Shown piece by piece: positions 3,318 through 9,906 of a stretch of 64,000 nt of DNA. Each line of letters starts with the position of its first letter. Positions within the stretch are counted from its first letter, which is position 1. This DNA comes from an uncultured Lachnospiraceae bacterium (lineage in GTDB: Bacteria > Bacillota > Clostridia > Lachnospirales > Lachnospiraceae). The DNA is taken from contig CAMAGI010000002.1 in the NCBI GenBank assembly GCA_945833775.1, forward strand, positions 1-64,000, written 5' to 3'. The notes beneath the pieces are model-generated. The model was not told the origin of the DNA and ran no database searches. It saw only the letters and a list, made by a program, of their open reading frames with translations. The position numbers and the translations under genes are program-made.

Positions 3318-4244
3318 ATGCAACGTGTCAGGCGTCAGATTGAAGCAGAATTTGAGAACCCGGAATTATTAGGCAGTCTTTCGAAAGAGCGGGTTGTCGC
3401 AGCGGTATTGGATACCGGCATCGGACGACACCCGGACTTTGACGGAAGACTGTTTGCGTTCCGGGATTTTGTAAACGGAAAAGATGTAATCTATGATGAT
3501 AGCGGACATGGAACTCATGTGTGCGGAATCCTGGGAGGCGACGGACACATCTCAGGCGGAAGGTATCGCGGAATTGCTCCCGGCTGTGGCTTCGCGGTGG
3601 GAAAGGTACTTGACCGATACGGCGATGGCAGTGTGGAAAACATGCTGGAAGGGCTGCAATGGGTGTTGGATTTAAAACACAGGCTTCCCATCCGTGTACT
3701 GAATATCTCAGTTGGCATCGGTGAACTTCGGGAAAGTGCCAAGGAAGATGCAATGCGAAGCATGCTGGAGCAGATCTGGAATGCCGACATTTTTGTTGTT
3801 TGCGCAGCTGGCAACAAGGGTCCTTCCGATGGGTCACTTTCCTCCATTTCCGGAGGAAAGATACTGTCTGTGGGCTGTCACGACGGTCCGTATTTTCAAA
3901 ATGTGGCAAACCGGTGCGAGACTTATTCCGGAAGAGGAGTGAAGGGAAGCAACTATCGCAAACCGGATATTGTGGCTCCCGGAACCAATATCGCCTCCTG
4001 CAATGCATTCTGGAGAATGGGGTACGGCAGAGCGCTCAATGCCTACGTAACAAAAAGCGGAACCAGCATGGCCGCACCGATTGTGGCAGGAACGGCAGTA
4101 CTGGCCTTTCAGGCAAAGCCACAATTATCCAATGAGGAATTGCGTTTCCTGCTTACAACAACAGCGACAGATTTGGGAGAGGATTGGAATAAACAGGGCT
4201 GGGGTATGGTAAATGCGAAAAAACTATTGACACGCCTCGTATGA
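3318..4244 (+). CDS. S8-family subtilisin-like serine protease, no obvious signal peptide
   Basis: Catalytic motifs D (AVLDTGIGRHPDF), H (GHGTHVCGILGG), oxyanion N (VCAAGNKG), S (SGTSMAAPIVAGTA). Confidence 0.9.
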   Translation: MQRVRRQIEAEFENPELLGSLSKERVVAAVLDTGIGRHPDFDGRLFAFRDFVNGKDVIYDDSGHGTHVCGILGGDGHISGGRYRGIAPGCGFAVGKVLDRYGDGSVENMLEGLQWVLDLKHRLPIRVLNISVGIGELRESAKEDAMRSMLEQIWNADIFVVCAAGNKGPSDGSLSSISGGKILSVGCHDGPYFQNVANRCETYSGRGVKGSNYRKPDIVAPGTNIASCNAFWRMGYGRALNAYVTKSGTSMAAPIVAGTAVLAFQAKPQLSNEELRFLLTTTATDLGEDWNKQGWGMVNAKKLLTRLV

Positions 4245-4255
4245 TTGTATACAAT
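4227..4255 (+). promoter_or_regulatory. Sigma-A-type promoter: -35 TTGACA (4227-4232), 17-nt spacer, -10 TACAAT (4250-4255)
   Basis: Consensus -35 and 5/6 -10 with ideal spacing, immediately upstream of the citrate-synthase-like/gntR/icd module. Confidence 0.7.
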
Positions 4256-4264
4256 TATACGAGG
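4235..4264. promoter_or_regulatory. 30-bp palindrome (one mismatched pair), CCTCGTATGATTGTATACAATTATACGAGG; candidate operator for the downstream GntR/FCD regulator
   Basis: Direct inverted symmetry; core ATTGTATACAAT resembles FadR/FCD-subfamily GntR operators; lies over the promoter spacer and -10. Confidence 0.65.
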
Positions 4265-4319
4265 TGAATTTTATTGCTATGAAAATACAATCAGAATGTG
4301 CGGAAGGAAGGCAGCGTTA

Positions 4320-5768
4320 ATGATGCGTGAGAATGAAACGTTCCAGAATCGTCCGGTAACGATGAATCAAAAGAATAATCTGCTTCAGATCGAGGAGCAC
4401 ATGTATATTTTGGATGACGTTGCAAAGCCAAATGTGTTCCGGAATATGTTCCCTTACTCCGAGATTCCCAAGATCCCGTTCAATGATCGAATTGTTCCAC
4501 ATAACATGCCAAAAGAAATCTGGATAACGGATACTACTTTCCGTGACGGACAACAGTCCAGAGCTCCCTACACGACGGAACAGATTGTCACGATTTTTGA
4601 CTATCTTCACAAATTGGGCGGCCCCAACGGCATGATCCGTGCAAGTGAATTCTTTCTGTACAGCAAGAAGGATCGGGATGCGGTCTACAAATGTATGGAG
4701 AGGGGATATCAGTACCCGGAGGTTACCAGCTGGATTCGTGCAAGCAAGGAAGATTTCAAGCTTGTCAAAGAAATCGGAATGAAGGAAACCGGTATTCTGG
4801 TAAGCTGCTCGGACTATCATATTTTCCTGAAATTGAAAATGACCAGACGTCAGGCAATGGATCATTACCTCAGTGTCATCCGGGATTGTCTGGAAGAGGG
4901 AATCAGTCCAAGGTGCCATCTGGAGGATATCACCAGAGCAGATATTTACGGATATGTGGTGCCGTTTTGTCTGGAACTGATGCGTCTGATGGAGGAATAC
5001 AAGATTCCGATTAAAATTCGTGCCTGTGATACCATGGGATATGGAGTCAATTTCCCAGGTGCGGTTATTCCGAGAAGCGTTCAGGGAATCATTTATGCGA
5101 TCCACACTCATGCGGGAGTGCCCCACGAGCTGATTGAGTGGCATGGACATAATGATTTCTACAAGGCAGTAGCCAACTCGACAACTGCCTGGCTGTACGG
5201 CTGTTCGGGAATCAATACTTCACTTTTCGGAATCGGAGAGCGTACCGGTAATACGCCTCTTGAAGCGATGGTCTTTGAGTATGCACAGTTAAAAGGCGAC
5301 TTAAACGGAATGGATACCACCGTGATCACGGAGCTCGCGGAATACTATGAGCGCGAGATCGGCTACGAAATTCCGCCCCGTACTCCTTTTGTGGGAAAGA
5401 ATTTTAATGTCACGAGAGCGGGTATTCATGCGGACGGTCTCTTGAAAAACGAGGAGATCTACAATATTTTTGACACCGAGAAATTCTTAAACCGGCCGGT
5501 TCTGTGTGCAATCTCCAATACATCCGGTCTTGCAGGAATCGCGCATTGGATCAATACTTATTACAAATTGCGTGACGGAAGACAGGTGGACAAGACCTCC
5601 GAGCTTGTTCAGGAGATTAAGAAGTGGGTGGATGAGGAATATGCCGGCGGACGAGTGACGGTACTTACGGATGAAGAGATTGTTGCATGCTTAAACCGCG
5701 TGTGCCTGGAAAAGGGGATTTCCCTCGAAACCAGTACAGCTGAAAGTCAGCAGGGAAGAGAAGGATAA
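4320..5768 (+). CDS. HMGL-like acyltransferase (isopropylmalate/homocitrate synthase superfamily), candidate Re-citrate synthase
   Basis: TTFRDGQQSRAPYT motif, HGHNDFYKAVAN, GERTGNTPLE; genomic linkage with NADP-isocitrate dehydrogenase. The ORF track starts at TTG 4245, but ATG 4320/4323 is more likely. Confidence 0.75.
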   Translation: MMRENETFQNRPVTMNQKNNLLQIEEHMYILDDVAKPNVFRNMFPYSEIPKIPFNDRIVPHNMPKEIWITDTTFRDGQQSRAPYTTEQIVTIFDYLHKLGGPNGMIRASEFFLYSKKDRDAVYKCMERGYQYPEVTSWIRASKEDFKLVKEIGMKETGILVSCSDYHIFLKLKMTRRQAMDHYLSVIRDCLEEGISPRCHLEDITRADIYGYVVPFCLELMRLMEEYKIPIKIRACDTMGYGVNFPGAVIPRSVQGIIYAIHTHAGVPHELIEWHGHNDFYKAVANSTTAWLYGCSGINTSLFGIGERTGNTPLEAMVFEYAQLKGDLNGMDTTVITELAEYYEREIGYEIPPRTPFVGKNFNVTRAGIHADGLLKNEEIYNIFDTEKFLNRPVLCAISNTSGLAGIAHWINTYYKLRDGRQVDKTSELVQEIKKWVDEEYAGGRVTVLTDEEIVACLNRVCLEKGISLETSTAESQQGREG

Positions 5769-5772
5769 GAAA

Positions 5773-6471
5773 TTGAGTACAGATTACGATGTAAAAAAAG
5801 AAGTGACGGATAAGTACTCTCTGCGGGGACGTGTTTTTCACAGATTGCGGGAAGATATTCTCAGCGGCAAATATGAAGAAAACGAAGAACTGCGGGAAGT
5901 TGCCATCGGCGAGGAGATGGGCGTCAGCCGAACGCCTGTCAGAGAAGCCCTGCGTCAGTTGGAGCTGGAGGGATTGATTCAGATCATTCCCAACAAGGGT
6001 GCGTATGTCACCGGAATCACCGAAAAGGATGTCAAGGACATTTACATGATCCGTTCCCTTTTGGAAGGATTATGTGCCCGCTGGGCTACGGAGAACATCT
6101 CCAAGGAGCAAATGGAAGAGATGGAGGAGAATGTTTATCTTGCCAAATTTCATGCCGAAAAGGGACATTGGGAACAGCTGGCAGAGCTGGACAATCGCTT
6201 TCACGATATTATGTATGAAGCCTGCAACAGCAAAATGCTGGAGCATCAGTTGAAGGACTTTCACCAGTATGTCCTACGGGTGCGTAAGAAGACGCTGTCC
6301 AGTGCCGTGCGCGGGAAAAAATCCAATGAAGAGCACGAGATGATCATGGAAGCGATCAAAGCGGGAAATGCAGAGCTGGCGGAGCAGTTGGCGCATCAGC
6401 ATATGATCAATGCGTATGACAATATGGTGAGCAATGGCTTAAAAGAAATATTCCGGCGTGTTGAAAACTAG
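5773..6471 (+). CDS. GntR-family transcriptional regulator, FCD subfamily
   Basis: N-terminal wHTH (VFHRLREDILSGKY...GVSRTPVREALRQLELEGLI) and C-terminal FCD-type helical domain (FHDIMYEACNS...HEMIMEAIKAGNAELAEQLAHQHM). Confidence 0.92.
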   Translation: MSTDYDVKKEVTDKYSLRGRVFHRLREDILSGKYEENEELREVAIGEEMGVSRTPVREALRQLELEGLIQIIPNKGAYVTGITEKDVKDIYMIRSLLEGLCARWATENISKEQMEEMEENVYLAKFHAEKGHWEQLAELDNRFHDIMYEACNSKMLEHQLKDFHQYVLRVRKKTLSSAVRGKKSNEEHEMIMEAIKAGNAELAEQLAHQHMINAYDNMVSNGLKEIFRRVEN

Positions 6472-6510: not shown

Positions 6511-7719
6511 ATGAGCAAGATTCAGATGAAGACCCCGTTGGTAGAGATGGACGGAGATGAGATGACCCGAATCCTCTGGCAGATGATAAAGGACGAGCTT
6601 TTGCTCCCTTATATTGATTTGAAGACAGAGTATTATGACCTTGGTCTGGAGAATCGCAATGCAACCGATGATCAGGTTACCGTGGATAGTGCAAATGCAA
6701 CGTTAAAATACGGTGTAGCGGTAAAGTGCGCGACGATTACTCCCAACGCAGCCCGAATGACGGAGTATCAGTTGAAGGAGATGTGGAAGAGTCCGAACGG
6801 AACGATCCGTGCAATACTGGATGGCACGGTATTTCGTGCGCCGATTCTGGTAAAGGGAATTGTACCTTACGTGAAGAATTGGACCAAGCCGATCACAATT
6901 GCGCGTCATGCATATGGTGACGTATACAAGAATACCGAGATTAAGATTCCCGGAGCGGGGAAAGCGGAACTTGTCTACACAGCTGAGGATGGAACCGAGG
7001 TGCGTGAACTGATCCACAATTTCACCGGTGCAGGGATTATACAGGGTATTCACAATACGGAGAAGTCAATTTCCAGCTTTGCAAGAGCCTGCTTTTCTTA
7101 TGCAGTGGATACAAAACAGGATCTCTGGTTTGCAACAAAGGATACCATATCAAAGAAGTATGACCATACCTTCAAGGATATTTTCCAGGAGATCTATGAC
7201 ACGGAATATAAGTCAAAGTTCGAAGAACTGGGCATCGAGTATTTCTATACGCTGATCGATGATGCCGTGGCAAGAGTCATTCGTTCCGAGGGAGGATTTA
7301 TCTGGGCGTGCAAGAACTATGACGGCGATGTAATGTCCGACATGGTCGCAACCGCTTACGGGGATCTATCCATGATGACCTCCGTACTGGTAAGCCCCAG
7401 CGGAGTGTACGAGTATGAAGCAGCACACGGAACCGTGCAGCGTCATTATTACAAACATCTGAAAGGGGAGGAGACTTCCACCAATTCCATCGCAACCATC
7501 TTTGCATGGAGCGGAGCACTCAGAAAGCGTGGCGAACTGGATCAGATACCGGAGCTTAGCGCATTTGCCGATAAACTGGAGCAGGCCTGCATCAAGACAG
7601 TGGAGGACGGAAAGATGACCAAGAGTTTAAGTCTGATTTCCACCTGTCCCAATCCCGTGATTTTGAACAGCCTGGACTTCATTAAGGCCATCCGGGAAAC
7701 GCTGGATACGTTGTTATAA
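6511..7719 (+). CDS. icd: NADP-dependent isocitrate dehydrogenase (about 402-aa eukaryote-like subfamily)
   Basis: [61 protein letters not shown] motifs. Confidence 0.93.
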
Positions 7720-7742: not shown

Positions 7743-7782
7743 GGGATTTGCATGGAAGTATTCGATGCAAATCCCTTTTTTT
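7743..7782 (+). terminator. Rho-independent terminator after icd
   Basis: 11-bp perfect stem GGGATTTGCAT / ATGCAAATCCC, 11-nt loop, followed by 7 T. Confidence 0.93.
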
Positions 7783-7916: not shown

Positions 7917-9248
7917 ATGAGTGCAGTGGTTTTGAAAAAGAAACTGACATCATTTCAGATCATTATTCTTGGCTTTTTAGGCGTTATTCTGGTGGGAACT
8001 TTGCTTTTAATGCTGCCGATTTCCAGCCGTAGCGGACAGATGACAACTTTTTGGGATGCATTGTTTACTTCCACTTCGGCGGTTTGCGTAACGGGGCTGG
8101 TGGTTTATGATACGGCAAGCTATTGGTCTCTCTTTGGGCAGTTGATTCTTCTTCTGCTGATCCAAATTGGGGGAATGGGTGTTGTCACGGTAGCTGCATC
8201 CATTGCCATGATATCCGGAAGAAAAATATCCCTGATGCAGCGAAGTACCATGCAGGAGGCAATTTCCGCACCGAAGGTTGGGGGAATCGTTCGACTGACC
8301 GGATTTGTAGTGAGGATTACGTTTGTCATAGAACTGATCGGAGCCCTTGTCATGGCTCCGGTGTTTTGCAGAGATTATGGGATGAAGGGATTTTGGATGG
8401 CCCTGTTCCACTCCGTTTCGGCATTTTGCAATGCAGGATTTGATTTAATGGGGGGAAGGGCGCCGTTTTCTTCCCTGACAGGTTATGTGACGCAGCCGGT
8501 TATCAATTTCACAATCATGCTCTTAATCATTGTGGGCGGAATCGGATTCCTGACCTGGGATGATATTCGTACGAACCGGCTGCATCTCCATAAATACAGA
8601 CTTCAGAGTAAGGTGATTCTCACCACGACGTTTTTTCTTCTGGTGGTGCCGGCTGTTTACTTTTATTTCTTTGAATTTCAGGAACTGAGCCCGGGTGAAC
8701 GAATTTTTCCCGTTCTCTTTCAGACGGTGACAGCGAGAACAGCAGGCTTTAACACGGCGGATCTGACGGATTTAAGTGAGGCGGGGCAGTACATCATGAT
8801 TTCGCTTATGCTTGTCGGTGGAAGCCCCGGTTCAACTGCCGGAGGAATCAAGACAACCACAATTGCGGTTTTATTTACGGCGGCATTATCCACCTTTCAG
8901 CGCAAGGAGAATGCTACTTTCTTCGGTCGAAGAATTGACGATGTTGTGGTCAAAAATGCGGCAACTATTTTCCTGATGTATATTTCTTTATGCTTTTCTG
9001 CCGCTTTATTCATCAGTATCACGGAGGGCTTGCCGATGCTTACTTGTCTGTTTGAAACCGTTTCGGCAGTGGCAACGGTGGGCCTTTCTCTGGGAATTAC
9101 CGGAAGCCTTGGCCTGTTTTCCAGAATTGTTTTGATCCTGTTGATGTTTTTTGGGCGGGTAGGTGGACTGACATTGATTTTTGCAGCGTTGTCACAAATG
9201 AGAAAAAATGTGTCAAAGTTGCCTCGTGAAAATATAACAGTAGGGTAA
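7917..9248 (+). CDS. ktrB: TrkH/KtrB-family potassium uptake membrane subunit
   Basis: Repeated P-loop-like TSTSAVCVTGL, SAFCNAGFDL, TARTAGFNTADL, SAVATVGLSLG; multiple TM segments; partner of a downstream KtrA-like protein. Confidence 0.9.
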   Translation: MSAVVLKKKLTSFQIIILGFLGVILVGTLLLMLPISSRSGQMTTFWDALFTSTSAVCVTGLVVYDTASYWSLFGQLILLLLIQIGGMGVVTVAASIAMISGRKISLMQRSTMQEAISAPKVGGIVRLTGFVVRITFVIELIGALVMAPVFCRDYGMKGFWMALFHSVSAFCNAGFDLMGGRAPFSSLTGYVTQPVINFTIMLLIIVGGIGFLTWDDIRTNRLHLHKYRLQSKVILTTTFFLLVVPAVYFYFFEFQELSPGERIFPVLFQTVTARTAGFNTADLTDLSEAGQYIMISLMLVGGSPGSTAGGIKTTTIAVLFTAALSTFQRKENATFFGRRIDDVVVKNAATIFLMYISLCFSAALFISITEGLPMLTCLFETVSAVATVGLSLGITGSLGLFSRIVLILLMFFGRVGGLTLIFAALSQMRKNVSKLPRENITVG

Positions 9249-9258
9249 AGGAGACATT

Positions 9259-9906
9259 ATGAAATCAATTCTATTAATTGGTCTTGGACGATTCGGAAGA
9301 CATATCGCCAGGCATCTGAATCAATTGGGACATCAGGTGATGGCGGTTGATGAAGCAGAGGAGAGGGTAGAAGCTGTTCTGCCCTATGTGACGAACGCCC
9401 AGATCGGAGACAGTACGAATGCACCCTTCCTGGAATCTCTGGGAATCCGCAATTTTGATGCGTGTATCGTAACCATAGGTAACGATTTTCAAAGTTCGCT
9501 GGAGACAACCTCCTTACTCAAGGAACTTGGGGCGCGCCTTGTAGTATCCAGGGCCGCAACGGATGTACAGGAAAAGTTTTTGCTTCGAAACGGTGCGGAC
9601 GAAGTTGTCTATCCGGAAAAACAGCTCGCAAAGTGGACGGCTATCCGTTACAGTGCGGAGCACATTCTTGACTACATCGAATTGGACGAGGGACATGCCA
9701 TATTTGAGATCCCGGTACCGAAGGAATGGGCAGGTCAGACGGTAGGACAGATCGATATACGAAAGAAATACAGCATCAACATTATGGGGATTAAAAAGGA
9801 CGGAAAGCTGCATCTGTCCATTTCGTCGGAAACAGTTCTGGAAGCGGACGAGACTATGCTGGTTCTGGGCAATAACAAGGATTTGCAAAAGTGCTTCCAT
9901 ATTTAA
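9259..9906 (+). CDS. ktrA: KtrA/TrkA-family K+ uptake regulatory subunit (RCK_N + RCK_C)
   Basis: LLIGLGRFGRHIARHLNQLGHQVMAVDE Rossmann fold; adjacent to ktrB. Confidence 0.9.
   Translation: MKSILLIGLGRFGRHIARHLNQLGHQVMAVDEAEERVEAVLPYVTNAQIGDSTNAPFLESLGIRNFDACIVTIGNDFQSSLETTSLLKELGARLVVSRAATDVQEKFLLRNGADEVVYPEKQLAKWTAIRYSAEHILDYIELDEGHAIFEIPVPKEWAGQTVGQIDIRKKYSINIMGIKKDGKLHLSISSETVLEADETMLVLGNNKDLQKCFHI

Follow-up and report, generated by a model that had tools for sequence, protein, structure and literature searches.

What is a nearly perfect palindrome doing on top of a consensus promoter, at the very point where one gene ends and an operon begins? The question arises from a 64,000-nucleotide stretch of DNA from an uncultured Lachnospiraceae bacterium (the window), where the order, all on the + strand, is S8 protease, dyad, synthase, GntR regulator and NADP-dependent isocitrate dehydrogenase (IDH). 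The nearest genomes are Lachnospiraceae, many with the label Acetatifactor. The protease gene (subtilase; PF00082, E 1e-40) spans 3318-4244, and its stop codon lies inside the palindrome, as originally predicted. The promoter is composed of a TTGACA -35 box (4227-4232), a 17-nt spacer and a TACAAT -10 box (4250-4255), and scores 11/12; the 30-bp palindrome CCTCGTATgATTGTATACAATtATACGAGG (4235-4264) matches at 14/15 pairs, the single mismatched pair being 4243/4256. Both elements are as the original prediction had described them. No other even palindrome of 30 bp in the window has as many as fourteen pairs (the runner-up has 12), and this number was reached in 2/200 first-order Markov windows (~1%). 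A structured RNA family was rejected, as positions 3900-4700 gave no Rfam match.

The first gene of the operon (4320-5768, +) encodes an HMGL-family synthase (PF00682) that reached no NCBIfam equivalog cut-off. Judging from its family and its neighbours (it adjoins the NADP-IDH), it is a putative Re-citrate synthase; genes for this enzyme often carry a wrong annotation as homocitrate or isopropylmalate synthase (PMC12016533). The regulator gene follows at 5773-6471 (+), and then the NADP-dependent IDH gene at 6511-7719 (+; NF006156 equivalog, 669.6 bits versus a cut-off of 335). The operon likely ends at a hairpin read directly in the sequence, GGGATTTGCAT/ATGCAAATCCC with a T run (7743-7782, +). 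Past the operon, two genes at 7917-9906 resemble by sequence a Trk/Ktr-type potassium transporter and a NAD-binding TrkA-like subunit. A conventional Si-citrate synthase is encoded as well (G000:C26:22377-23552), and coexists with the HMGL-type synthase in 28/31 sampled genus genomes; one Lachnospiraceae genus has been described with both Re- and Si-citrate synthases (PMC11170127). The idea that the operator controls carbon entry toward 2-oxoglutarate stands as far as the operator is concerned, but carbon has another way in besides this operon, because the Si-citrate synthase is also encoded. Our search of the literature found no paper bringing together a GntR regulator, a Re-citrate synthase and an IDH.

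The product of the second gene has an N-terminal GntR winged helix (PF00392; 5.2e-19) and a C-terminal FCD domain (PF07729; 2.1e-28), confirming an FCD-type GntR regulator in the second position of the cluster; it is the proposed repressor of the operon promoter. Residues D140, H144, H188 and H210 align with the metal-site residues of TM0439 (His list in PMC4746285). The related regulator CitO uses such a metal to bind citrate (PMC4746285), and the effector here is likely a metal-bound carboxylate. No more than two FCD proteins turned up in the genome, this one included; the other (G000:C11:35345) was 33% identical in a tblastn comparison.

Orthologous synthase genes were gathered from 61 genus genomes, 200 family genomes and 80 further loci. 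Footprint sites were picked by the 12-bp core alone, so that flanks and -35 box played no part in their choice. Over 160 distinct sites, the positions of the core ATTGTATACAAT (4244-4255), whose right half is the -10 box, were 95-100% conserved, and those of the GTAT/ATAC flanks 84-94%. Of these sites, 144/160 had the TTGACA hexamer at one fixed offset, core -17. Based on this conservation of core and flanks and on the fixed offset of TTGACA, the predicted operator is the central 22-bp GTATnATTGTATACAATnATAC (4239-4260), with its right half doubling as the -10 box. Footprinting upstream of the orthologous modules, which had been proposed as a check, thereby found the operator conserved at about 160 promoters. 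The palindrome had been predicted as operator over its full length; the central 22 bp are conserved, but the outer CCTCG/CGAGG arms show no sequence conservation. The centre, GTATAC (99-100% per position over the 160 sites), matches the palindromic consensus NyGTM-N0-1-KACNy published for FadR-subfamily operators (PMC4494728), in line with the expected likeness of the core to operators of this class. Exceptions were seen at a few close loci with the GntR gene: L149 has no good core within 400 bp, and L082 has 2 mismatches.

The operator is also rare. A genus-wide pattern scan placed it in essentially two places per genome, with a reversed-pattern control near zero. In the 2.67-Mb genome to which the window belongs, the exact 12-mer ATTGTATACAAT occurs once, and the 22-bp motif has one exact copy and one copy with 2 mismatches; a genome-wide motif scan had been suggested, and these two are the sites that it yields. 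Allowing up to 3 mismatches, the 22-bp motif was kept only at the operon promoter and at an aspartate aminotransferase gene. A larger regulon in this genome was rejected, since, of ten core sites with at most 1 mismatch, most fall in ORFs. We found no paper containing the 12-mer in the literature searched.

Within the family, operator and regulator gene go together. The operator was present upstream of the synthase in 69/70 family loci with the FCD-GntR gene versus 3/17 without it (Fisher p=1.8e-12, a value that is indicative only, as the loci are related). The three motif-bearing loci without a local GntR (G248, G083 and G221) come from genomes that encode the GntR elsewhere, and in G248 the relocated gene has its own core, preceded by a TTGACT box. 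Most genomes lacking both the gene and the motif had no GntR match, or a distant relative at 32-34% identity. The sole family locus with GntR and without the motif upstream of the synthase, in G126, has a rearranged operon (L323, G126:C9) in the order IDH-synthase-gntR, with a degenerate site before IDH that has 4 mismatches and retains TTGACA. In three further loci (L234 of G045, L302 of G033 and L304 of G171) the module has no synthase gene; the operator lies directly before gntR-icd, and the order S8 protease, operator, gntR, icd is kept. Among class-wide relatives at 42-50% identity, several carry the same core, fused to TTGACA, immediately ahead of gntR; we claim no rate for these loci, which were taken as +/-1.5 kb, often missing the operon start, and whose control mixed strands. 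A site before the regulator's own operon that tracks the regulator across genomes is what is expected of an autoregulatory site, and this assignment is well supported by the comparison of genomes. Conservation, genome-wide rarity and co-occurrence with the gene all favour the reading of the palindrome as an autoregulatory operator of GntR.

The second copy of the operator (G000:C31:16102-16123; L008/L241), outside the window, differs at 2 of 20 positions and precedes a gene for an aspartate aminotransferase of type Ic (NF053594, PF12897), with its centre 43 bp before the gene. The site was found in 33/33 orthologous loci, with 1-3 mismatches of 20 versus 7-11 in adjacent coding DNA. Against the link with this regulator, G054 has the aminotransferase site together with an FCD protein that is only 36% identical, in an assembly that is 74% complete. 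A promoter-like TTGT...TATAGTATGATA stands immediately upstream, which puts the operator in a position suggestive of repression, and the locus has a separate upstream terminator. On our best reading, the two-promoter regulon would cover the 2-oxoglutarate/glutamate/aspartate node (synthase, IDH and aspartate aminotransferase).

The outer arms differ from the core in how they are conserved. In read-through transcripts from the protease gene, positions 4233-4266 (+) could form a hairpin of 15 pairs (dG -21.7 kcal/mol, z -5.8), followed by a moderate, terminator-like T-rich tail, AATTTTATTG (4267-4276, +; 6 T of 10). The hairpin can act only in such transcripts, because RNA started at about 4262 lacks the left arm. 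At arm positions +/-6 to +/-11 the sequence varies, and pairing persists in about half of the close relatives. Of 66 distinct arm combinations, 14 were fully paired, whereas shuffling would lead one to expect 0.6 (5000 shuffles gave 4 at most); the pairing collapsed once the register was slid. The arm types include CCTC, GCTC, TCTC, CCCC, TCCT and TCTT. Pairing is bimodal, 40/79 close loci having at most 3 of 6 arm pairs, and mean dG of the 40-nt hairpin was -22.1 kcal/mol at paired-arm loci versus -8.2 at unpaired ones. Tails had 4.2 T per 10 nt after paired arms versus 2.4 (p=0.0005, collapsed by arm type). A simple terminator rule was passed by 11/34 paired-arm relatives versus 1/40 unpaired. 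The stronger hairpins and T-richer tails of paired-arm loci favour a weak terminator overlapping the operator; against it, the majority of tails fall short of a strong U run, and arm pairing bears no relation to how far off the upstream stop lies. The clearest operator/terminator-like overlaps are L019, L075, L076 and L063, perfect palindromes of 38-40 bp that run over part of the -35 box and have T-rich tails. An apparent inversion of the promoter in L025 proved to be an artefact of how a fully palindromic 40-mer was oriented.

The stability of this hairpin, its T tail, the protease stop codon within it, the covariation of the outer arms and the T-richer tails at paired-arm loci are all what would be seen if the palindrome did nothing but end protease transcripts as an intrinsic terminator, and its likeness to an operator were incidental. 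A terminator, however, needs just pairing, and the core is nearly invariant; the core persists where the arms are unpaired and where a different gene lies upstream. Moreover, the dyad tracks GntR, nearly always carries the -35 box, and recurs before the aminotransferase gene despite the separate terminator there. With the core sequence conserved beyond pairing and tracking GntR, we reject a terminator and nothing else as extremely improbable. The refuting alternative that had been raised, termination of the protease gene by the palindrome, is probably true in part: some weak termination of the upstream transcript probably occurs at the dyad, alongside its role as operator and not in place of it. 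We also considered a genuine operator whose main reader is another regulator, such as the second FCD protein (G000:C11:35345); GTATAC-centred palindromes are common to many members of the FadR subfamily (PMC4494728). Against this, the motif comes and goes with the local GntR even where the synthase is missing from the module or the GntR has been relocated, and the second protein is only 33% identical; we regard such a reader as very unlikely.

A further account leaves the operator under selection and bears on the terminator part only: the symmetric core would seed hairpins during replication, and template switching would rewrite the promoter spacer, itself unconstrained, as a mirror of the start side, giving arms without a function of their own. 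Perfect stems that carry compensatory changes are known to arise, and to persist, through template switching (PMC8794818), which would suit the bimodal pairing of the arms, the right arm ATACGAG that recurs even at loci with an unpaired left arm, and the failure of most paired loci under the simple terminator rule. It would also suit the absence of correlation (Spearman 0.02) between arm pairing and how far away the upstream stop codon lies; on this ground, that distance was rejected as what sets the need for a terminator. On the other hand, mutation alone does not predict T-richer tails after paired arms, and long arms are far less common in the wider family, where the cores are no less symmetric. 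Functionless arms are a real contender, somewhat less likely than not.

We hold it highly probable that the palindrome serves as operator for the FCD-GntR that the second gene of the operon encodes, with binding, repression, a two-promoter regulon and weak termination as predicted properties. Under this operator model, a GntR dimer would bind GTATnATTGTATACAATnATAC, which covers the spacer, the -10 box and the predicted start site, and would exclude RNA polymerase; a second dimer may bind the outer GTAT half-sites. The synthase-gntR-icd operon would then be repressed by its own GntR in a negative autoregulatory loop. We infer repression because the site covers the -10 box and the start site, the direction being deduced from promoter geometry only. 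The same GntR would repress the aspartate aminotransferase gene from the operator downstream of that gene's predicted promoter. The GC-containing outer arms would stretch the dyad into the 15-pair hairpin with its T-rich tail, so that weak termination of the protease transcript could keep read-through out of the repressed operon. More tentatively, and at a little under even chances, we propose that one dyad does three jobs, as GntR operator, as promoter -10 box and, through covarying arms, as a terminator of the upstream gene that blocks bypass of repression; the arms would have been remade in many paired forms, the operator core possibly seeding their growth by template switching.

Operators of FCD-GntR regulators are known; what is unusual is an operator apparently fused with the -10 box and, in a subset of loci that includes the window, with a terminator-like hairpin. 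The autoregulatory operators surveyed in the FadR subfamily (PMC4494728) resemble the present case in that the FCD-GntR gene lies inside its own target operon, and in their A/T-rich palindromes with GT/AC boxes and weaker extra half-sites near the main dyad, such half-sites being described for many members. The survey covers only one clostridial factor (PMC4494728). Unlike its cases, the operator here is fused to the -10 box, keeps a fixed -35 spacing and is stretched into a hairpin in some species. CitO of Enterococcus faecalis is likewise an FCD-GntR tied to citrate metabolism, and its metal site was modelled on TM0439, with which the window protein shares the metal-site residues; it activates citrate fermentation, however, in a citrate-dependent way and from sites upstream of the promoters (PMC4746285), whereas the present site lies on the -10 box and start region of a presumably citrate-making operon, implying repression. 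Within the same bacterial family, LacI-type regulators of Clostridium phytofermentans have conserved palindromic operators at or just downstream of start sites, for which repression and self-regulation were proposed (PMC5171806); regulator family, motif and pathway differ from those here. The regulon of GntR_1482, from DAP-seq in C. thermocellum, is unrelated to the present one.

We found no published report on a regulator of the citrate-to-2-oxoglutarate branch of Lachnospiraceae in the literature searched. The present analysis assigns to this branch, in a major gut family, a candidate regulator, the motif it would bind and a regulon of two promoters. The extended arms, paired or unpaired around the same core, offer a natural series for asking whether an operator may be turned into a terminator. 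If the three-job reading is true, the repressor's own binding site also stops the read-through that would bypass repression. The switch itself would give a handle on the link that these anaerobes make between the entry of carbon and the synthesis of glutamate and aspartate.
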